A stretch of 53,801 bases of DNA from an uncultured Bacilli bacterium (GTDB lineage Bacteria > Bacillota_I > Bacilli_A > RF39 > UBA660), in assembly GCA_944329425.1 (NCBI GenBank), contig CALVIG010000007.1, positions 1 to 53,801 on the forward strand, given 5' to 3'. Both the position numbers and the translations under genes were made by a program. Below are positions 6,393-39,632 of this stretch, piece after piece (the first letter of the stretch is position 1; each line of letters starts with the position of its first letter). The notes beneath the pieces are model-generated. The model worked only from the letters and a program-made list of their open reading frames with translations, ran no database searches and was not told the origin of the DNA.

Positions 6393-6448
6393 ATTATTAC
6401 TTTTAGTTATTAATTAAAAATGTTATAATAACAATATGGGAGGTAATG

Positions 6449-7009
6449 ATGGAAAAAAAGATTAACAAGATGTGTAACGCATCGTTAATAATTTCTATTA
6501 TATTCGTGATAATTGGATTGTTCTTATTTATTAAACCAGATACAACAATATCAATAATATCATACGTAATAGGAGGAACTTTACTAGCTAGTGGACTTTT
6601 TTCTGGCTATAGGTATTTTACCGCTGAAGGGCTTGGAAACATCTTTAATTTTGATTTGGTGTATGGTGTTTTACTTACGATAGCGGGATGTTTTTTAATA
6701 TTTAGTCCAAACGCATTAGCAACTTTATTTCCAATAATACTTGGAATATGGATAATAATTAATAGCGTTACTAAGTTCCAGTATGCTTTAGTGTTAAAAA
6801 AAGTAAAAAACGAAGATTGGACGTATACCACAATAATTTCGTTATTAACGCTTATATGGGGAATAGTATTACTTTGTAACCCGTTTAAAAGCGCCCTTGC
6901 AATTACGCAAATAATTGGTGTATTTATAATCGTATATGCCGTTTTAGACATAATCGATAATTTTATTATCAGAAAAAACATTAAAGATATATTAAACATT
7001 TTTAAATAA
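6449..7009 (+). CDS. DUF308/HdeD-like membrane protein
   Basis: This 186-residue protein consists almost wholly of hydrophobic helices; about six membrane segments can be seen, with the regular helix pairs and glycine pattern of the HdeD/DUF308 family. Two ATGs (6446 and 6449) are possible. GGGAGG at 6438-6443 fits 6449 slightly better. A TATAAT at 6424-6429 lies upstream with a poor -35, so the gene may have its own promoter behind the terminator at 6364-6392. HdeD-type proteins are linked to acid stress in enterobacteria, but that role should not be assumed here. The large prepilin gene follows after 13 bases and may be cotranscribed. Confidence 0.75.
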   Translation: MEKKINKMCNASLIISIIFVIIGLFLFIKPDTTISIISYVIGGTLLASGLFSGYRYFTAEGLGNIFNFDLVYGVLLTIAGCFLIFSPNALATLFPIILGIWIIINSVTKFQYALVLKKVKNEDWTYTTIISLLTLIWGIVLLCNPFKSALAITQIIGVFIIVYAVLDIIDNFIIRKNIKDILNIFK

Positions 7010-7022
7010 AGTAGGTGATTTT

Positions 7023-8747
7023 ATGAAAAAGAAAAACGGGTTTACGTTAGTGGAGCTATTAGTAACGATAGCGTTAATATTAATGGTGTTAGGTATTGCA
7101 ATCGTAAGTATAATAAAAATAAGTGATACCAAAAAACAAGAAGCTTACGAACAGGTAAAAAAACAAATATTAACGGCCGCAGAGCAGTACTTGGAAACTA
7201 ACGCTTATTATAAAGAAAGTATAACAAATACTGGAAATATAAAAATATCATTAGGCTTATTAGTTAATGAAGACTATCTTAACGCCGTCACTAATCCAAT
7301 AACTGGTAAAAAATTAAATGAATGTAATTACGTAGAAGTAACTAAAAATAATTCTTCGTTAAATTATTCGTTTGTGGATGATCAAAAAGATTGCTCTTCT
7401 AATTCATACGTAGACGTATCAGAGGCGGCATCCGCGCCAAAAATAAATGCCACGATTATTGGGAAACAAGGTAATATTAAAGATAATAATCAGTATTGGT
7501 ATATTTTAGATGATCAAGGTAATACTCCTTATATTGAAATTACCGCAACTGATGAAAATTCTTCATTAAGTACGCCTATACAAATTAAAAATAATTCAGG
7601 AGAATATGCTAATTTGAATACCGAAATAGAAGAAGAAAAACAAAATTCAAATTATACAAAAATTAAGGCATACGATTATGGATCATACGCTACTTCCACT
7701 GAAAATAAAAACGTTTGTTATAAGGTAACTAATGATAACAACGTGTCTTCAGAAACATGTGTTCAGTATAGTGTTGATGTTGATTTACCGGTTTGCGATT
7801 TTAAAATTACAGGAATTATTAAGGAAACAGGGTCTTTATATAACACTTATTATCAGTTAGGAACAATTGATTTAATTTCGATTGGACCGTTGTTAAGATT
7901 AAATGCAAGTGATGAAATAAGTGGTATTAATGAAGAAAAAACAAAAGCAATATCTCCTTCAAATAATGAATATAAATATAGCGGAATGATTCATTCAACT
8001 GGAATTTCTATATATAACACGAATGGAAAAGCTGTTACGTGGAAAGCAAATGTATTTGATAATGCTGGCAATCAAAATGCGTGTTCAAAGCAACTTAAGA
8101 TAGATCCGTATGGGTTCAAAGATTTTTTTGATAAATATAAAAAAACAGTTACCTGTGGCAACACAACGGGTGAGTCAACAAAGTGGACTAATACATATAG
8201 AACAATAACCCAAGAATTTATTATTGAACAAGATGGCAAAAAAACAACGAAAAATGTAACAAAGACCTTCAACACCTCTACTAAAGTAGGGAATGTAACC
8301 TATTTTGATGGAACCACTATATTTTCGTGTCCTGTAAATGTTTATGTAGATAAAGAGCCGCCTGTGATTACTAACAGTGGTGGAGGAAGAGTAAGCTGTA
8401 AGAAAAATTCAAGCTCATCTTATTATAATACATGGGGATATTCGATATCTTATTATGATGAATTAAGTGGAGCAACAGCATATTTAACCTCTTATTATTC
8501 TAGTAGTAATTGTAAGTCATTTTATTGGGCAAACAGTGGGCTTTCTCAAAAAAATGCATCTTCTGCAGCTAAAACATTTAGTGTTTTTGCAGGATGTAGT
8601 AATAATACTAGTCCTCAAGCTAAATTTAAGGTGGTTGATGGTGCTGGTAATGTTAGTTATGCTAATGTTACTGCAAATACATCTAATATAAACAGTTCAA
8701 ATACTAATGTATGTAATTCTTCTTCATGGTATACATCTAATAGGTAA
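7023..8747 (+). CDS. giant prepilin with adhesin-like Ig-type repeats
   Basis: The N-terminus is a textbook class III/type IV prepilin signal: MKKKNG, then FTLVELL with Glu at +5 and a roughly 25-residue hydrophobic helix (7-30). It should be cut after Gly6 by the prepilin peptidase at 36500. Typical pilins have 120-200 residues; this one has 574. After a pilin-sized head (to about 135) come Ser/Asn/Thr/Tyr-rich segments with at least two repeats of an extracellular Ig-like type. Each opens with a VDxxxP element (VDLPVCDF near 256, VDKEPPVI near 442) and ends with an Asp-x-Ala-Gly-Asn loop (FDNAGN near 347, VDGAGN near 538). Cysteines occur in pairs, suggesting disulfides outside the cell. 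The likely role is a tip pilin or adhesin (inference). Codon choice in the second half differs from the first half and from neighbouring genes, as described in the findings. Confidence 0.85.
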   Translation: MKKKNGFTLVELLVTIALILMVLGIAIVSIIKISDTKKQEAYEQVKKQILTAAEQYLETNAYYKESITNTGNIKISLGLLVNEDYLNAVTNPITGKKLNECNYVEVTKNNSSLNYSFVDDQKDCSSNSYVDVSEAASAPKINATIIGKQGNIKDNNQYWYILDDQGNTPYIEITATDENSSLSTPIQIKNNSGEYANLNTEIEEEKQNSNYTKIKAYDYGSYATSTENKNVCYKVTNDNNVSSETCVQYSVDVDLPVCDFKITGIIKETGSLYNTYYQLGTIDLISIGPLLRLNASDEISGINEEKTKAISPSNNEYKYSGMIHSTGISIYNTNGKAVTWKANVFDNAGNQNACSKQLKIDPYGFKDFFDKYKKTVTCGNTTGESTKWTNTYRTITQEFIIEQDGKKTTKNVTKTFNTSTKVGNVTYFDGTTIFSCPVNVYVDKEPPVITNSGGGRVSCKKNSSSSYYNTWGYSISYYDELSGATAYLTSYYSSSNCKSFYWANSGLSQKNASSAAKTFSVFAGCSNNTSPQAKFKVVDGAGNVSYANVTANTSNINSSNTNVCNSSSWYTSNR

Positions 8748-8789: not shown

Positions 8790-8805
8790 ACTAATATATT
8801 TAAAT

Positions 8806-9006
8806 TGTCGATGAAAAATTAGTAAGTAAAAATAATCTTCAAAGAGAGCTGGTGTTTGGTGTAAACCAGTAAGATGTTTTTGCTGAAGCTATTTTCGGAA
8901 TGCAGTAAAAAACTGCCGGTTAAAAACCGTTATGTAAAATTAAGTATAAAATAGGATGGTACCACGAGCCTTTCGTTCCTAATGAGGGGAGTGGTGCCTT
9001 TTTATA
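8806..9006 (+). promoter_or_regulatory. alanine T-box riboswitch
   Basis: The leader carries all landmarks of a T-box. Stem I has an AGTA-type motif and the distal GAGAGCTGG...AAACCAG element. A specifier loop shows GAAGCTA, with Ala codon GCT at 8888-8890. The T-box sequence AGGATGGTACCACG is at 8953-8966. Its TGGT can pair with an ACCA tRNA end, which fits the A discriminator of tRNA-Ala. A terminator stem (GGTACCAC with GTGGTGCC, 8958-8998) and T run follow, overlapping the antiterminator. Uncharged tRNA-Ala should allow readthrough into the genes at 9020 and 9575 (alaS). Confidence 0.93.
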
Positions 9007-9019
9007 TGGGAGGGATAAA

Positions 9020-9574
9020 ATGGAATTAAGTAAAAAAGATGTAAAAATATTCATAACTGCCGGCAAGGCTAATTCGGGTAAAGATACAACCTGTGAGTTA
9101 ATTGATAATTATTTCAAATTAAAGGGTAAAAAAATCGTTAATTTGCAGTTTTCTTCTTACATAAAAATGTATGCTAAAACCCTATCAGGTTGGAATGGTG
9201 ATGAAGATACCAAGCCAAGAAGTTTGCTTCAGGAACTTGGTACTGAAATAATTAGAAAAAAAATTGACAATGATTTTTTCATAAAAAGAATAATTGGGGA
9301 TATTGAGGTTTATTCTTATTATTGTGATGCTATAACGATAAGTGATGCAAGACTCCCAGAGGAACTTGATAGTATTAAAAAAAGTTTTAAAAACGTGTAT
9401 AAAATTAAAATAGAAAGACCAAACTATGAAAACAATTTAAATGATACAGAAAGAAAGCACATCACCGAAACTGCTTTAGATAATTATGATGATTATGATT
9501 ATGTTTTGGTAAATGATGGAAGTATAGAAGAATTAAATGAAAAAGTAATTAAAATAATTGATGAGGTGATATAA
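9020..9574 (+). CDS. deoxynucleoside monophosphate kinase-like P-loop protein
   Basis: This 184-residue protein has a P-loop GKANSGKDTT at about 15-24, a segment LLQELGTEIIRKK near 75-87, and a SDARLPEE segment near 113-120 that matches the conserved DVRFPNE-type motif of dNMP kinases (phage T4 gene 1 and relatives). It would phosphorylate dNMPs with ATP, but the substrate is not certain and other small P-loop kinases are possible. The start has GGGAGGGAT. It is the first gene after the alanine T-box; its stop codon is immediately followed by the alaS ATG, so its expression should follow that of alaS. This placement is unusual, as in most Firmicutes the T-box is directly followed by the synthetase. 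Confidence 0.75.
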   Translation: MELSKKDVKIFITAGKANSGKDTTCELIDNYFKLKGKKIVNLQFSSYIKMYAKTLSGWNGDEDTKPRSLLQELGTEIIRKKIDNDFFIKRIIGDIEVYSYYCDAITISDARLPEELDSIKKSFKNVYKIKIERPNYENNLNDTERKHITETALDNYDDYDYVLVNDGSIEELNEKVIKIIDEVI

Positions 9575-12298
9575 ATGAAAAAATTAAATAGTAAAGAACT
9601 TAGAAACCTATGGATAAAATTTTATGAAGAACGAGGGCATAAAAACATAGGAGCAGTATCTTTAATTGGTGATGGAACAACAGGCGTTTTATTTAACGTA
9701 GCAGGAATGCAACCTTTAATGCCATATCTTTTAGGTAAACCTCATCCTTTAGGAAAAAGGTTATGTAACGTTCAAGGGTGTGTAAGAACGAATGATATAG
9801 ATTCTGTAGGTGACGCTTCACACGCTACGTTTTTTGAAATGATGGGTAGCTGGAGTTTAGGAGATTACTTTAAAGAAGAAAGAATTAAATGGAGTTATGA
9901 TTTATTTACAAAGGTGCTTGAAATTCCAAGAGAAAGACTTGCTACAACTTGTTTTGAAGGAGACGAAAACGCCCCAAGGGATGATGAAGCTGCAATTATT
10001 AAAGAAAAAGTTGGATTTAAAAAGGAAAATATTTATTTCTTGCCAAAAAGTGATAACTGGTGGGAAATAGAATCTGGTCCATGTGGCCCTGATAGCGAAT
10101 ATTTTTATATAACAGATAAGCCAGCATGTTCAGAAAAATGTAACCCATCTTGTGATTGTGGGCACTTTATTGAAATAGGTAATGACGTATTTATGCAATA
10201 CGAAAAAATAGATAAAGATAAGTACGTCCCGTTAAAAAATAAAAACGTAGATACAGGTTGGGGATTCGAAAGAATACTTGCGTTTTTAAACACGGAAGAT
10301 GGGGATATTTATAAAACCGATTTATATACTGGTGTAATGAATATTTTAGAAGAAAAACTTGGTGTTAAATATAATACTAGCGAAGACATAGATAGATCAA
10401 TTAGGATCATTCTTGATCATACTAGAACTGCTACCATGCTTTTAGGAGATGAAAAACATTTAACACCATCTAACGTTGGTGCGGGTTATATTTTAAGAAG
10501 ACTTATTAGAAGGGCAATTAGGCACACTAAAAAGCTTAATTTAGAACCTACCATATTGATTGATATTGCTAAATATTTTATTGAAAAAGTATATGATGAA
10601 AGTTATCCTAATTTATTGAAATCACAAGATTTTATACTAAATGAAATAAAAAAAGAAACAAATAATTTTTTAAAAACGTTATCTAACGGTTTAAAAGAGT
10701 TAGAAAAAATGATTGATAAAAACATAACTGATGATAACAGAAAATTAGATTCATCTTTATGTTTTAAGCTATATGATACTTACGGATTTCCTTTTGAATT
10801 AACTAGTGAAATACTAAAAGAAAAAAACATAATTGCATCAAAGGAAGAATTTGATAAATACATGGAACATCAAAAGAATTTAGCTAGACAAAACGTTAAA
10901 AAAATAGATGATTTAAAGGTTCTTGGTGATATCAAAAACTTTAAAGAAGAAAGTACGTTCACTGGTTATGATGAGCTAGAAACAAAAGCTAAAGTAATAT
11001 TTGTTGGAGATTTAGAAGGTAACGTTGCAAATATTTATTCAGAAGGAATTTTAATTTTTGATAAAACTCCATTTTATGCAACCATGGGAGGACAAGTAGG
11101 AGATACCGGTTACGTAATTGGTAAAGATTTAGAAGCTGAGGTTTTAAAAACCGAGAAAGCTCCTAACGGTCAAAACATGTGCTACGTAAGATTACTAGAA
11201 GGAGACGTAAAAGTTGGTGAAGAAGTACTTTTAAAAGTAGATAAAGAAAAACGCTTTACTACTTGTCAAAACCATTCTGCAACGCATTTATTGCAAAGGG
11301 CTTTGCAAGATGTTTTAGGTGGCGAAGTTACTCAAGCTGGTAGCTTTGTAGATAATGAAACGCTTAGATTTGATTTTAAATTCACTGACAAAATAACCGA
11401 TGAGGATGTAATAAGAGTAGAAAACAAAGTTAATGAGATGATTAAAGAAAACATTCCAGCTATAATTACCGAAATGAGTATAGAAGATGCTAAAAAACTA
11501 GGTGCAATGGCTCTTTTTGAAGAAAAATACGGTGATGTTGTTAGGGTTGTTAAGTTTGGTTCTTCGGTAGAATTATGTGGAGGAACCCATGTTACTAATA
11601 CCGGTAACATTAGAAGTTTTGCCATTAAATCGATAGAGTCTAAAGGGCTTAACGTGTATAGAATAGAAGCTGTTTGTGATACTAATTTGGAAACCGAAGT
11701 TTTTGAAATGATAAAACCATATAATGATGAGATGATTTTATTATTAAAAAAAGCAAAAAAAATAATAGAGGAAGCAGAAAAAGATGAAATAAAGTTAAAC
11801 TTTAGTCCTCAAATATCAAACGAAAGGCCAAAATGCTATAAAGATATTTTAGAAAATAAATTAGAGGTAACTAATTTACGTAAAGAAGTAAATGAATTAG
11901 AAAAAGAATATAAACAGGAACTTATAAAAAAAGAATTATCTAAAACTGATGAATACGTGTCTAATAAAATAACTGGCAAATATGGTGATGTAGTTATTTT
12001 AAGTCTTCATGATCATGATATGGAAACGATAAAATCCTTAGTAGGTTCTATATTAAATAAACTAAATAATGGTATAGTATTTATTTCCAACGTAAAAGAA
12101 GGAGCAATAAACTTTGTATGTAAAGCAAATGAAAATTTAAAAGGATTAGTAAATTCTGGAGAATTAGTAAAAGACGTTTCTAAAATAGCGGAAGGAAATG
12201 GTGGCGGAAGCCCAACTTTTGCTCAAGGTGGGGGAACAAGACCTGATAAACTTGATATTATTGAAAGTTACGTTAAATCTAAGTTAGTTGAAGAATAA
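9575..12298 (+). CDS. alaS: alanine--tRNA ligase
   Basis: AlaRS charges tRNA-Ala and hydrolyses mischarged Ser/Gly-tRNA. The 907-residue length is normal. The class II catalytic domain fills about 1-240. The editing domain has the zinc-binding HSATHLL (about 567-573) and CGGTH (about 668-672) motifs. The C-Ala domain ends with the glycine-rich GGGSPTFAQGGG stretch. An insert with CNPSCDCGH around 189-197 is Cys-rich and could bind a metal. It is translated directly after the dNMP-kinase-like gene and controlled by the upstream T-box. mltG follows after 12 bases without a visible terminator and is probably in the same transcript. Confidence 0.97.
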   Translation: MKKLNSKELRNLWIKFYEERGHKNIGAVSLIGDGTTGVLFNVAGMQPLMPYLLGKPHPLGKRLCNVQGCVRTNDIDSVGDASHATFFEMMGSWSLGDYFKEERIKWSYDLFTKVLEIPRERLATTCFEGDENAPRDDEAAIIKEKVGFKKENIYFLPKSDNWWEIESGPCGPDSEYFYITDKPACSEKCNPSCDCGHFIEIGNDVFMQYEKIDKDKYVPLKNKNVDTGWGFERILAFLNTEDGDIYKTDLYTGVMNILEEKLGVKYNTSEDIDRSIRIILDHTRTATMLLGDEKHLTPSNVGAGYILRRLIRRAIRHTKKLNLEPTILIDIAKYFIEKVYDESYPNLLKSQDFILNEIKKETNNFLKTLSNGLKELEKMIDKNITDDNRKLDSSLCFKLYDTYGFPFELTSEILKEKNIIASKEEFDKYMEHQKNLARQNVKKIDDLKVLGDIKNFKEESTFTGYDELETKAKVIFVGDLEGNVANIYSEGILIFDKTPFYATMGGQVGDTGYVIGKDLEAEVLKTEKAPNGQNMCYVRLLEGDVKVGEEVLLKVDKEKRFTTCQNHSATHLLQRALQDVLGGEVTQAGSFVDNETLRFDFKFTDKITDEDVIRVENKVNEMIKENIPAIITEMSIEDAKKLGAMALFEEKYGDVVRVVKFGSSVELCGGTHVTNTGNIRSFAIKSIESKGLNVYRIEAVCDTNLETEVFEMIKPYNDEMILLLKKAKKIIEEAEKDEIKLNFSPQISNERPKCYKDILENKLEVTNLRKEVNELEKEYKQELIKKELSKTDEYVSNKITGKYGDVVILSLHDHDMETIKSLVGSILNKLNNGIVFISNVKEGAINFVCKANENLKGLVNSGELVKDVSKIAEGNGGGSPTFAQGGGTRPDKLDIIESYVKSKLVEE

Positions 12299-24453: not shown

Positions 24454-24496
24454 ATAAAAAAAATGTTATTATATATTTAGTCTAGGAGTGATGGTT

Positions 24497-25099
24497 ATGC
24501 TTAATAATAAGGGGTTTGCCGTTTCAACAATTTTATATACCATATTAATTGCGTTTTTACTTTTTTTAGGTATTACTTTATCAATGTTTTCATCTTCTAA
24601 TAGCATTATTAGTAACGCTAATAATGATTTAGTTAACGGCACCGTTTTTAGGGCGGTGCAAGTAAAAGATAATAATAAAGAAGGTGTTTGTGGCCAAGAC
24701 TATGCATGGTTTGAGATGGATAATAATATATTAATAAAAATTAATAGTAGGTATGGTATTGTTTATTGGCCAAGGGATTTTATTAATTATGATGAATTAA
24801 AAAAAATAGAAATTACTGAAAAAGACATTTCATCAAGTGAGGATATTAATAATTTTAAAGATTTATCTCCCGAAAAAAAGTTTTTTTATAAATATTTACG
24901 AAATGGATACATAAATTTATCTGTATTAAATAATACTTATAATAATGTTAAATTTGAAATTAAGGATGGGTTTTTATTTGATATGGATGAGGATGGAATA
25001 AGTACTGATTTAAGCCTATATTCTGGTTTTGATATTACATTTGAAGATATAAAAAGTGGTGCTACTACTACTTTAACAGTTAGCGATATATGCAGTTAA
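24497..25099 (+). CDS. prepilin-like protein lacking Glu5
   Basis: From ATG 24497 (GGAGTG upstream; in-frame GTG 24488 and ATG 24491 are less likely) this 200-residue protein begins MLNNKG followed by FAVSTILYTILIAFLLFLG, a prepilin-like leader and hydrophobic helix. The +5 residue after the Gly-Phe cleavage point is Thr instead of Glu. Among pseudopilins this exception is known for GspK-type tip subunits. The rest is polar, with two cysteines (CGQDYAWF near 77 and the C-terminal DICS) that could form a disulfide. The context is spoVID-ysxE upstream and the valS T-box downstream, far from the pilus assembly genes. Assignment as a minor or tip pilin is inference; a simple membrane-anchored secreted protein is the alternative. 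Confidence 0.65.
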   Translation: MLNNKGFAVSTILYTILIAFLLFLGITLSMFSSSNSIISNANNDLVNGTVFRAVQVKDNNKEGVCGQDYAWFEMDNNILIKINSRYGIVYWPRDFINYDELKKIEITEKDISSSEDINNFKDLSPEKKFFYKYLRNGYINLSVLNNTYNNVKFEIKDGFLFDMDEDGISTDLSLYSGFDITFEDIKSGATTTLTVSDICS

Positions 25100-34661: not shown

Positions 34662-36488
34662 ATGAAAGCAATCGAGATAATTTTATTACCATTCGTCTTT
34701 ATATATAAAGGTTTTATATCAGTGTTATTAATACCTTATTATTTTGTTTTAGGAATAGTAAAATTTTTTGAACTTATATTTAAAAGTAATAATAAAACAG
34801 TTATACCAGAATTAAAAGATAATTCTAACGTAAAGGTAGTAAAAGGTGTAAGGTCGGCTTATTCTCAATCAAAAGAACAAAAGCAAGAATTAAATCCAGA
34901 TGAGTTAAAAGAAATTAAGGATAAAAACACGTTAAAGCGTCAAAAAGAGTTTGAAAGATTAGTTAAAAAAGCAAGAGAAGAAGAGGCTAAAAGAATAAAA
35001 GAACAGGAAAAATTAAGAATAGAAAGAGAAAAAAGAGAGGCCGAAAGAAAGAAAAGAGAACTTGAATTAAAAAAACGTGAAGAACAGATGGAAGCTAAGC
35101 GATTGGCTAGGGAAGAAGCTTTAAAAAATAAGGGTGAGCCAGTTACCTTTAGTGATAAGATAAAGGCTATTTATAAAAAACTTACGTTTAATAAAAAAGA
35201 AGTTTTAGAATTAGAAGCAAAAAAAGCCGTTTTAGACGAACAATTTAAGGATAAAAAGAATAATGCTTCTAGGTTTGAAAAACCCCTTGTTTTTAATTAT
35301 ATAGCAAAAAATGCTAAGGGAGAAATGGAAAAAGGAAGTATAGAAGCATTATCAAGGGTTGATGTTCATTCGTTTTTATTGGCAGAAGGTTACGAAGTAT
35401 ACGAAATAACCGCTGCTAAAGCATCCTTTGATTTGTTTGGTAGTGGTAATTACAGAATAAAGAAGAACAGATTAATATTTTATCTTTCACAACTATCTGC
35501 TTATTTAAAATCGGGTATTGCGCTTGCAGAAGCGGTTAAAATTCTTGAGGAGCAGGCTAAAAATAAGCATGAAAAAAAACTTTGGAAAGCGGTTTATTAT
35601 GATTTGTCCATGGGTGATGTTTTATCACTTGCAATGGAAAAACGTAAGGATTCTTTTCCTAAGTTACTTATTAACATGATTAAAACCGCAGAAATGACTG
35701 GTAACTTACCAGAAACATTAGATGATATGGTAGACTATTATACTGAGTCTGAAAACACTAAAAGACAAATGAAGTCCGCAATGCTTTATCCTGCGGTAGT
35801 AACGGTTTTTGCAATAATAGTTGTTACGTTTATATTAATGTGGGTTGTTCCACAATTCGTCGACATATATGCCGATTTAGGAAGCGATATACCTGCCATT
35901 ACTAAATTTGTTATAAAAATAAGTGATTTTCTAAAAAATTATCTTATTTACATACTTTTAGCAATAATCGTTTTAATTCTAATTTATTTATATATGTTTA
36001 AGAACATTAAGGCATTTAGAAAAACAATGCAAGAATTTATGATGCATTTACCTGTATTTGGTAAAATAATAATATATAATGAAGTAACTATTTTTACCAA
36101 GACTTTTGCAAATCTTATAAATCATAATGTTTTCATTACTGATTCTATAGATGTTTTAAGCAAAATAACGGATAACGAAATATATAAAAAGCTTATATTT
36201 GATACTGCTAAAAATTTAACTAAGGGAGATACTATATCAAAGGCATTTAAAGATCATTGGGCTTTCCCAAACATAGCTTATCAAATGCTTTTGACCGGAG
36301 AAAAAACTGGTAGGTTGGGCCCTATGATGGAAAAAGTGTCTGAGTATTTCCAGGAACAACACCGTAACATAATAAACCAAATGAAAACCCTAATAGAGCC
36401 GGTATTAATTGTTACTTTGGCGGTTGTCGTAGGTGGTATTTTACTTGCTGTTATAATACCAATGTATAGCATGTATGACGCTTTTTAG
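34662..36488 (+). CDS. pilC: PilC/GspF-type platform protein with N-terminal extension
   Basis: The C-terminal two-thirds is a type II secretion/type IV pilus platform protein that anchors the pilus assembly ATPase in the membrane. Two GspF repeats are visible: FYLSQLSAYLKSGIALAEAVKIL near 274 with TESENTKRQMKSAMLYPAVV near 363, and the second with VTIFTKTFANLINHNVFI near 476 and a C-terminal helix PVLIVTLAVVVGGILL. The usual length is about 400 residues; here it is 608. The extra approximately 200 residues at the N-terminus are a hydrophobic membrane segment (1-44), a linker, and a long Lys/Glu/Arg-rich coiled coil (about 80-165). The start has AAGGTGTAAG. It is followed by the prepilin peptidase. 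This could be ComGB-like, for DNA uptake. Confidence 0.88.
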   Translation: MKAIEIILLPFVFIYKGFISVLLIPYYFVLGIVKFFELIFKSNNKTVIPELKDNSNVKVVKGVRSAYSQSKEQKQELNPDELKEIKDKNTLKRQKEFERLVKKAREEEAKRIKEQEKLRIEREKREAERKKRELELKKREEQMEAKRLAREEALKNKGEPVTFSDKIKAIYKKLTFNKKEVLELEAKKAVLDEQFKDKKNNASRFEKPLVFNYIAKNAKGEMEKGSIEALSRVDVHSFLLAEGYEVYEITAAKASFDLFGSGNYRIKKNRLIFYLSQLSAYLKSGIALAEAVKILEEQAKNKHEKKLWKAVYYDLSMGDVLSLAMEKRKDSFPKLLINMIKTAEMTGNLPETLDDMVDYYTESENTKRQMKSAMLYPAVVTVFAIIVVTFILMWVVPQFVDIYADLGSDIPAITKFVIKISDFLKNYLIYILLAIIVLILIYLYMFKNIKAFRKTMQEFMMHLPVFGKIIIYNEVTIFTKTFANLINHNVFITDSIDVLSKITDNEIYKKLIFDTAKNLTKGDTISKAFKDHWAFPNIAYQMLLTGEKTGRLGPMMEKVSEYFQEQHRNIINQMKTLIEPVLIVTLAVVVGGILLAVIIPMYSMYDAF

Positions 36489-36499
36489 GAGGTAATTTT

Positions 36500-37288
36500 A
36501 TGACTTTAGAAGTACTAACTTGTATAATGATTTTTATATCAGGTTTAGTATTAGGATCATTTTATAACGTTGTGGGATATAGATTGCCGAACAATATGTC
36601 AATAATATACCCAAGGTCACATTGCCCTAATTGCAATCATGAACTTAAATTTTACGAATTAATCCCAGTAATATCTTATATATTTTTATTAGGGAAATGT
36701 AAAGTATGTAAAAAAAGGATATCAATTTTTTATCCTTTTTTTGAAATAATTACGGGGATACTATTTTTACTTTCTTATTTTGTCTTTGGGCTTAGCATGA
36801 ATTTTTTTATCTCAATAACGTTTATATCGATATTACTTATAATTAGTATAAGTGACATTAGATACTACATAATTCCTGATGAAGTAATCGTTGCAGGAAG
36901 TATTATATTATTAATAGAATTTATAATTAATTCTATAATTTTAAATACCGGAATTATAAATGGGGTAGCCATTCCTTTACTAAATGGTTTAGGATCTTTT
37001 GCCATACTTTATTTATTTAAAGCTTTTGGAGACCTCGTTTTTCAAAGGGAAAGCCTTGGCGGTGGAGACATAAAATTATTATTTGTTATAGGGCTTGTCT
37101 TAGGTTTTGACATGTCCATCGTTACGATATTTATAGCATCTTTTATTGCACTTCCGTTGTCAGTTATAAGCCTTATTAAAAATGATAACAACGTTTTACC
37201 ATTCGGACCATATATATCGATTGCAGCAATCTTGGTATTGTTAAGTAATTTAGACTTAAACATGATACTTCAATTTTTTACTAAATAA
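36500..37288 (+). CDS. pilD: prepilin peptidase (A24 family)
   Basis: PilD/ComC-type membrane aspartic peptidase that cuts prepilin leaders and often methylates the new N-terminus. The 262-residue length is normal. The N-terminal domain has the CPNC...CKVC zinc motif near 35-60 and FYELIPVISY. Catalytic aspartates are in SDIRYYIIPDE near 117-127 and GGGDIKL near 189-195. At least seven membrane helices are apparent. It lies 11 bases behind pilC and is the only prepilin peptidase in the window, so it probably serves all the prepilin-like genes seen. Confidence 0.95.
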   Translation: MTLEVLTCIMIFISGLVLGSFYNVVGYRLPNNMSIIYPRSHCPNCNHELKFYELIPVISYIFLLGKCKVCKKRISIFYPFFEIITGILFLLSYFVFGLSMNFFISITFISILLIISISDIRYYIIPDEVIVAGSIILLIEFIINSIILNTGIINGVAIPLLNGLGSFAILYLFKAFGDLVFQRESLGGGDIKLLFVIGLVLGFDMSIVTIFIASFIALPLSVISLIKNDNNVLPFGPYISIAAILVLLSNLDLNMILQFFTK

Positions 37289-37320
37289 AAAGAGCAAATA
37301 TAATAATTTTGCTCTTTTTA
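37287..37320. terminator. bidirectional terminator between pilD and pilB
   Basis: AGAGCAAA (37291-37298) pairs with TTTGCTCT (37308-37315) with A5 and T5 flanks. It serves both convergent genes. Confidence 0.8.
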
Positions 37321-38619
37321 AATGTCTAACATTTCCATATCCGAAGATATATCTTTTGGTTGATTGTTATTTGTTATTTTATTACTTATGTTAATATTAT
37401 TTTTTTCTTCTTGTTTTAACACGATTTTTGTAGATTCATCATCTAGTTCTACTAGTCGTAGTATTTCTTCAATAGTCGTAATGTTTTGAATTACTTTTTG
37501 TAACCCATCTTGCAAAAGAGTAGTGGTATCATTTGTATAAACTAGCTTTCTTAACTCTTCCTTCGGAACCCCATTAGCGATGGCATCGCGTATTTCTTGG
37601 TTTATAACCAGTACTTCATGTATCGCAATTCTTCCTTTATAACCTCCTACGCACTTATCACAACCTTCTGCGTACGCAAGTTCGGTAATATCAATTCCTA
37701 AGTTAGCTTTAATTAATTTCTTTTCATACTCAATGGCTGGTCTTTTCTTCATGCAATGAGGGCAAATTCTTCTAGCAAGTTTTTGTGAAACAATACCGTT
37801 TAAAGAACTTGCAAGCAAATACGTTTCAACGTCCATATCCCTTAAACGTTCAATCGTGTTTAACGCGTTATTTGTATGTAAAGTAGATAAAACAAGATGC
37901 CCAGTTATTGATGCTCTAACCGCTATTTTAGCGGTTTCATCATCACGAATCTCACCAATCATTATTATGTCTGGGTCTTGACGCAATATCGAACGTAATA
38001 CGTTAGCAAAAGTAAGACCAATTTCACTATTTACTTGTATTTGATTTATTCCATCGATGTTCATTTCTACCGGGTCTTCAACGGTAACTAAGTTTACTTT
38101 AGGTGTATTAAGTAGTTGTAAAAGAGAGTAAACGGTAGTCGATTTACCCGAACCAGTTGCACCAGTAACTAAAATAATACCATTAGGTTCTTTTATTAAT
38201 TCTTTCATTTTTATTAGATTTTTAGGTGAAAAGCCTAGACTTTCAAGTCCGTTTAAACTAGATGAATAATCAAGTATACGTATAACGATTTTTTCGCCTT
38301 CATTTGTAGGTAAAGAAGATACACGCATATCAAGATTGATATCTTTAATCATTGTTTTTATAGCACCATCTTGTGGTAACCTTGATTCCGTAATATCCAT
38401 TCCTGAAATGATTTTTAACCTTGCAATTAAATTTTTTCTTATGTTTTCTGGAATAATTGTATAGTCTATCAAAATACCATCGATTCTAAACCTTACTTTA
38501 ATATTTTTTTCAGAAGGATCAAAATGAATATCACTAGCTCCAGCTTGTGCAGCTGTATATATTATCTCATTAACGATTTCTGTTATTGGTAACTTATTAA
38601 AATCTATTTGTTTTAACAT
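37318..38619 (-). CDS. pilB: type IV pilus/competence assembly ATPase PilB (GspE family)
   Basis: This hexameric ATPase drives pilus extension. It has 433 residues; the MshEN N-terminal domain of full PilB (about 560) is missing, as in ComGA-like enzymes. The sequence shows GASDIHFDPSEKNIKVRFRIDG near 27-48, Walker A GATGSGKST at 153-161, the Asp box and Walker B in IIMIGEIRDDETA near 214-226, and the His box LVLSTLHTNNA near 235. The zinc motif CPHC...CDKC is near 286-322. The C-terminus is extended and Asn/Lys-rich. It lies on the opposite strand, divergent from the two prepilin genes. Confidence 0.93.
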   Translation of the reverse strand: MLKQIDFNKLPITEIVNEIIYTAAQAGASDIHFDPSEKNIKVRFRIDGILIDYTIIPENIRKNLIARLKIISGMDITESRLPQDGAIKTMIKDINLDMRVSSLPTNEGEKIVIRILDYSSSLNGLESLGFSPKNLIKMKELIKEPNGIILVTGATGSGKSTTVYSLLQLLNTPKVNLVTVEDPVEMNIDGINQIQVNSEIGLTFANVLRSILRQDPDIIMIGEIRDDETAKIAVRASITGHLVLSTLHTNNALNTIERLRDMDVETYLLASSLNGIVSQKLARRICPHCMKKRPAIEYEKKLIKANLGIDITELAYAEGCDKCVGGYKGRIAIHEVLVINQEIRDAIANGVPKEELRKLVYTNDTTTLLQDGLQKVIQNITTIEEILRLVELDDESTKIVLKQEEKNNINISNKITNNNQPKDISSDMEMLDI

Positions 38620-39268: not shown

Positions 39269-39632
39269 TGTTAAGAAACTTAATAATAAGGGCGTTACTT
39301 TAATAGAATTAATTGTTAGTTTTATGCTTGTTGCGGTTGCCATAATATACTTTTATCAAACTTTATATACGGTTAAAAAGCTATATACCGAATCACAAAA
39401 AGAAACTAACGAATTTGTTAAGTTTAACTACGCTTTTAGAATAGCAGATACTTATATAAGGCAAAAAGGTTTTGATAAAGACGAAATAAAAAATTTAATT
39501 AAAGAAGAAAAAGATGATGAAGTTTCTATTGAACAAGATAAAGATAATAGTGATTGTTATATAATAACCATTGATGGCAAATCACAAGAATTATGGATAT
39601 ATGACCAATCAAGTAGTAATGAAGAAAATTAA
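39261..39632 (+). CDS. prepilin-like protein (minor pilin)
   Basis: From ATG 39261 (AGGTG seven bases upstream; in-frame GTG 39252 and ATG 39255 are too close) this 123-residue protein has the leader MNNVKKLNNKG and a pilin helix VTLIELIVSFMLVAVAIIYFY, with Glu at +5. The mature part is small, charged and almost Cys-free (one Cys near 94). It overlaps the previous prepilin gene. The size and N-terminus fit a ComGE/ComGF-like pseudopilin. Confidence 0.78.
   Translation: MNNVKKLNNKGVTLIELIVSFMLVAVAIIYFYQTLYTVKKLYTESQKETNEFVKFNYAFRIADTYIRQKGFDKDEIKNLIKEEKDDEVSIEQDKDNSDCYIITIDGKSQELWIYDQSSSNEEN

Follow-up and report, generated by a model that had tools for sequence, protein, structure and literature searches.

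A large type IV prepilin with a chain of variable outer modules, probably surface-binding, in an uncultured Bacilli bacterium

We found that an uncultured Bacilli bacterium encodes a 574-residue prepilin, P0001, which is probably a modular minor type IV pilin that binds surfaces and is diversified by module exchange. Its gene lies in the window, by which we mean the whole stretch of 53,801 nucleotides that was analysed; the window is contig C7 of an 18-contig genome of 1.11 Mb (G000; completeness 95.8). P0001 begins 13 nt past the stop codon of the DUF308 gene upstream (Table 1). The N-terminus reads MKKKNG|FTLVELLVTIALILMVLGIAIVSI, with predicted cleavage at G6|F7 and the Glu at +5 being E11. 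In a profile search, N_methyl (PF07963) reached 30.9 bits against a cut-off of 21.2, TIGR02532 was also above its cut-off, and G6, F7 and E11 show no variation across 32 homologues, which bears out the original prediction of a prepilin N-terminus cleaved after MKKKNG. This leader is retained in the homologues, 31 of the 32 being matched by N_methyl at E≤0.05; its absence from them, named beforehand as an outcome that would speak against a pilus tip adhesin, did not arise. P0001 carries the class III signal peptide with Glu at +5 and the hydrophobic alpha-1 segment of a modular type IV pilin, while its C-terminus, which reads ...NVCNSSSWYTSNR, has neither an LPXTG-type sorting signal nor a terminal hydrophobic helix. 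The unusual length that had been remarked upon also held: eight prepilins of the genome, P0001 included, score above the N_methyl cut-off, and P0001 is about four times as long as most of the others, which read out mostly at 127–169 aa, plus one of 273 aa.

Table 1. Positions, within the window, of P0001, its modules, the borders of its slot and the pilus genes.
Feature	Position	Strand	Evidence or remark
Gene for a DUF308/HdeD-like membrane protein, bounding the slot upstream	6446..7009	+	Family search, synteny
Ribosome-binding site AGGTGA, ahead of the P0001 start	7013..7018	+	Sequence read
P0001, large modular prepilin, 574 aa	7023..8747	+	ATG start; N_methyl PF07963 E 1.8e-7
Pilin module, residues 1-126	7023..7400	+	Leader MKKKNG|F; long alpha-1 helix (9-59), then a small sheet; C101 and C124 conserved
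Module D1, residues 127-251, Ig-like beta sandwich	7401..7775	+	AlphaFold2 pLDDT mostly 86-95; Ig structural matches
Module D2, residues 252-363, PKD/Ig-like	7776..8111	+	VDVDLP opening, DNAGN loop 346-350; Vibrio PKD1 match
Module D3, residues 364-441, small all-beta	8112..8345	+	C378, G405, C436 nearly invariant
Module D4, residues 442-574	8346..8744	+	VDKEPP opening, DGAGN loop; matches last module of paralogue L075_9498
T-box leader, downstream border of the slot, leads into kinase-alaS genes	8799..8983	+	Rfam RF00230, 104.5 bits
Nucleotide-kinase-like gene ('dCK', named by reading) and alaS	9020..12298	+	Downstream border genes, conserved in relatives
PilC/GspF-type inner-membrane platform protein	34662..36488	+	GspF model E 2e-83
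PilD-like prepilin peptidase	36500..37288	+	By reading of sequence; no NCBIfam match
GspE/PilB/ComGA-type assembly ATPase	37318..38619	-	Family search of window
Small prepilin, 169 aa	38759..39268	+	Sequence, family match
Small prepilin-like protein, 126 aa	39252..39632	+	PF07963 above cut-off at 39282

We modelled P0001 with AlphaFold2 on an alignment of 32 family sequences (mean pLDDT 80.4). In the model a helix (9–59) and a small sheet make up the pilin part, and beta modules follow at about 136–252, 252–363, 374–443 and 447–551, the last with a loop of pLDDT <50. Residues 1–126 match the genome's small pilins in size and share 40% identity, in a 99-residue alignment, with one of ~135 aa; as modelled, they are a complete pilin module ahead of four beta-rich modules. 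The predicted tail is made of several beta modules; a single non-Ig domain common to ordinary pilins was not obtained. Folds were compared by running VIA-align 2 on Foldseek hits. Residues 252–363 superimposed on the Vibrio PKD1 domain 6aem (Z 8.6, rmsd 2.1, 84/84 residues) and on 4l9d, also Vibrio PKD1 (Z 8.1), and residues 136–253 on PD-L1 and Fab/butyrophilin Ig domains (Z 7.7–8.6 over 91–98 residues). Residues 375–557 matched PD-L1 loosely (Z 7.8, rmsd 6.6), and the modelled strands beyond residue 363 are Ig-compatible. Ig-type folds are widespread, so these matches tell the fold only. No Pfam family other than N_methyl is above its cut-off in P0001, the extra modules being assigned by fold alone; Pfam Ig models stay below threshold, those that match relatives of P0001 (Big_3_2, Big_13, Big_3_3) are all under cut-off, and the Pfam search recognised no ligand-binding family. 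PDB sequence searches returned no convincing relative of the outer part, and by BLAST D3 is shared with three orthologues only. On the model, the extra modules are domains not specific to pilus biology, with Ig/PKD-like folds at 136–363. The predicted Ig-type tail therefore stands for at least two modules as a fold and does not extend to recognised Pfam Ig families. The sequence marks on which it had been based were located: VDxxxP openings at residues 251–256 (VDVDLP, in which D252 and P256 are invariant across the family) and 442–447 (VDKEPP), and loops at 346–350 (DNAGN) and 539–543 (DGAGN).

P0001 contains 12 cysteines, two of which, C101 and C124 within the pilin core, are invariant. The cysteine count is even in 30 of 32 full-length homologues (binomial p 1.2e-7, an optimistic value since the homologues are related and not fully independent). 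This supports the earlier suggestion of paired cysteines, apparently beyond chance, and is consistent with extracellular disulphides, among which C101–C124 and C378–C436 are predicted pairs. Counting against a disulphide-rich reading, no BdbD-type thiol oxidase (PF13462, Thioredoxin_4) was found in the genome of the window.

We then compared the position and number of such genes among relatives, which are metagenome-assembled genomes (MAGs) of uncultured Bacilli, several with isolate names containing 'Lapin' (probably rabbit). At least the pilin core was matched in 54 of 99 related genomes, and in none of 39 genomes from other families of the class. The large prepilins of the genus measure 446–877 aa and occur mostly in one slot, running from DUF308 (or recD2) to kinase-alaS. 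The slot holds one large prepilin in the genome of the window, G016 and G011, two in tandem in G012, G015, G010, G001, G004 and G002, and three in G003 and G014. It is vacant in G013, G009 and G008, which have their copies at other sites, and is interrupted by contig ends in G005, G006, G007 and G017. No large prepilin was matched in G017, whose slot runs off the contig; this and the three empty slots indicate that the slot copy is not essential. Extra copies outside the slot adjoin pilus genes (L077, L093) or trmR (L097). In G003 (L082, 1403–6440), recD2 is in two halves, and the ORF between them, for a reverse transcriptase of 646 aa, probably belongs to a group II intron.

The family varies mainly outside its pilin core. 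Between genomes, the core is on average 50% identical, the first module 30% and the remainder 29%, against shuffled-sequence baselines of 22% for the core and 26% for the tail; paralogues within one genome are 59% identical in the core and 30% in the tail. In a tree of the core, P0001 clusters with copy 1 of G012, G015, G016 and G010, and copy 2 of G012 and that of G015 fall in a separate lineage. Module by module, with one genome per species compared, D1–D3 of P0001 align with orthologues at z 41, 33 and 18, whereas its D4 (441–574) is unrelated to that of three orthologues (z 2.0, 1.3 and 0.8), which have a different D4 in common (z 13.5–35 among themselves). The D4 of P0001 instead matches the terminal module of L075_9498, the second copy of G015 (z 33.6, 45% identity, E 4.5e-30), and this type is found in two genomes only among the 18 of the genus. 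Variability had been anticipated at the C-terminus, and it is there, by these identities and module z values, that the variation outside the core is strongest. We considered whether a chimeric assembly had produced the D4 mismatch; this is unlikely, since even the nearest match of D4 is only 45% identical to it and the ORF is single and intact inside a 53.8 kb contig. Breaks of the same kind are seen between tandem copies. In G004 the two copies are 97–100% identical in nucleotides at positions 840–960, then drop sharply to background, and past the break copy 1 matches a G002 gene, mostly at 73–85%. In G014, two copies are 92–100% identical over the first 180 nt and divergent afterwards. This shows that modules are exchanged between copies and lineages, making the outer modules mosaic. 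The swap signal shows diversification by module replacement, not by point change alone.

TSP1 modules occur on sister pilins. In L085_6060, L086_1038 and L088_8962 they are above Pfam cut-offs, with the pattern WSxCSxxCGGG-R; in L082_7428 and L092_853 they are recognised by pattern, genome scan or weak match, and a 980-aa prepilin outside the genus, L139, has one above cut-off. A profile of the TSP1 segments matches complement C6 (2.2e-8) and thrombospondin-1 (2.6e-8). Six relatives out of 59 have a TSP_1 match above cut-off, as does one genome in a sample of 295 from the phylum; none of 14 controls does. All these matches lie inside large prepilins, with the exception of L140, which loses its N-terminus at a contig end and whose Ig-like module before TSP1 belongs to the P0001 family. 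Foldseek with a TSP1-bearing fragment returned nothing below E 0.001, properdin and C5b6 TSP1 chains matching weakly, so the TSP1 assignment rests on sequence profiles. P0001 itself has no TSP_1 or TSP1_ADAMTS match above the Pfam cut-off. The stretch 'CGNTTGES..W' (378–388) was considered as a decayed TSP1 and rejected: it has neither the CGGG-R pattern nor a Pfam match, and it aligns with the D3 module common to three orthologues, not with TSP1. Full-text searching of the literature turned up no title or abstract reporting TSP1 on pilins. Another long prepilin, of 1374 aa, was seen in another genus (L101, 930–5054, in G032); its repeat of ~216 aa, with the pattern ID-x-x-G/T-P, holds fibronectin type III domains.

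Divergent outer domains could also arise if the extra modules were a structural stalk or a surface coat without binding, their divergence being neutral drift or evasion of phage or antibodies. Ig-like modules are indeed frequent as spacers, and phage or immune escape would likewise yield fast-evolving, swapped outer domains. We nevertheless consider this explanation unlikely, since a single module shape would be enough for a stalk, and what is found is entire modules exchanged for unrelated ones such as TSP1 and not modules that drift. It is partly compatible with a surface-binding pilin. Against the latter, some Ig modules may be mere spacers.

The machinery for a type IV pilus is present: the window encodes PilC and the assembly ATPase and, by reading, PilD. 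The PilC-like protein has a charged N-terminal extension of ~200 residues before its GspF domain. A 203-aa protein at 24488–25099 of the window has a prepilin-like hydrophobic N-terminus (NNKGFAVSTILY) and no family match. The ATPase is the only non-Tad PF00437 protein above cut-off in the genome, and PilT was not found there; the only other PF00437 protein above cut-off was rejected as a PilT-type ATPase, being a member of a Tad locus. This Tad pilus locus (TadZ, TadA and TadB-like genes) lies at G000:C1:43267-44094 (L113) and is additional to the type IV pilus genes. At the end of the 273-aa prepilin of the same genome (L109, region of G000:C4:84163) is a dockerin type I domain (Pfam E 9.7e-12), which makes this prepilin a second modular pilin of the genome and implies that a protein with a cohesin could dock to the pilus.

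The same gene content bears on whether P0001 belongs to a competence (Com-type) pilus whose tail binds DNA and not a surface, a reading to which we give little credence. ComEC is present in the genome, the ATPase stands single and without PilT as described above, the P0001 core scores weakly with ComGE and ComGD models, and a large minor pilin, ComZ, is tied to DNA uptake elsewhere (PMC8179133). However, Com pili bind DNA via the small minor pilins ComGD and ComGF (PMC12153270). The ComG matches of P0001 are far under the NCBIfam equivalog cut-offs (24.6 bits vs 49 for ComGE, 24 vs 70 for ComGD) and due to the N-terminus, and tails that vary by species and by copy are ill-suited to a generic ligand such as DNA. 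In addition, protein or glycan is the more usual ligand of TSP1 and Ig modules. That P0001 is a pseudopilin of a secretion system and not part of an extended pilus is highly improbable: there are minor matches to GspH and GspG models and the platform protein matches GspF best, but the Gsp matches of P0001 are under cut-offs and confined to the shared N-terminus, and the lineage, to judge from its relatives being Bacilli, is monoderm and has no outer membrane.

For the surface-binding modular pilin that we favour, the following mechanism may be proposed. Prepilin peptidase would remove MKKKNG, and the alpha-1 helix would pack into a type IV filament, with the PilB/ComGA-like ATPase and PilC as the machinery that builds it. 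The Ig-like modules would form an outward-facing chain, probably at the tip, since the filament body could not easily accommodate four bulky modules. The outermost modules would be the binding part; recombination between paralogues would swap them while the pilin core stays constant, and the pilus would thereby change its hold, be it on mucus, a host glycoprotein or a neighbouring microbe. We infer both the tip location and adhesion, and regard adhesion to mucus, host or neighbours as the likeliest role of P0001; the earlier reading as a pilus tip adhesin is in this sense partly supported. From 0 to 3 gene copies in one place, with swapped outer domains, suggest an attachment device open to change, not an ordinary subunit of the pilus. 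We extend this tentatively to the large prepilins as a whole, which could form a domain-swapping system of adhesin variation, in which tandem copies in a fixed slot share a common carrier and recombination near the conserved VD-x-x-x-P linkers replaces outer modules, some of them thrombospondin-like, thereby giving the pilus new targets.

Modular pilins were described in 2021, with >1,200 proteins in 264 architectures (PMC8179133), so P0001 is of a kind already known. Among them, PilB of Streptococcus sanguinis has proven adhesion and a suggested tip position (PMC8179133). PilB and PilC of S. sanguinis (PMC8179133, PMC9934059) resemble P0001 in their class III leader, small pilin module, bulky C-terminal module(s) and monoderm host. 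They differ in that the added module is a single vWA in PilB and a lectin in PilC, whereas P0001 has four beta-rich modules, two of them Ig/PKD-like by fold, and its family shows tandem copies in relatives and exchange of modules between copies; Pfam matched in P0001 neither the vWA nor the concanavalin-like lectin module that would mark an orthologue of either. CofB of ETEC and TcpB of Vibrio cholerae are likewise large minor pilins with beta domains added past the pilin module (PMC8179133), but they belong to type IVb pili of diderm bacteria and PDB searches gave no sequence relation to P0001. The SiiE and Big-domain repeat adhesins share beta-sandwich modules and D-x-A-G-N loops with P0001 (SiiE 2yn5 fits its model with Z 7.7, and 2yn3 is a weak profile match, E 0.039); they depend on autonomous secretion or a wall anchor instead of a pilin helix, and Pfam Ig models remain under cut-off in P0001. 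TSP1-module adhesins occur in animals and apicomplexan parasites (thrombospondin, properdin, TRAP-type). They share TSP1 with L085_6060, L086_1038 and L088_8962 and differ in the carrier, here a bacterial pilin, and from P0001 in that it has no TSP1; TSP1 on type IV pilins would parallel these adhesins. What is new here is a chain of several modules, a slot of tandem genes whose copy number varies, terminal modules that are replaced, with P0001 itself as an instance, and TSP1 on sister pilins. The P0001 family offers a testable answer as to what uncultured gut Bacilli with small genomes hold on to: a fixed pilus carrier with exchangeable outer modules.
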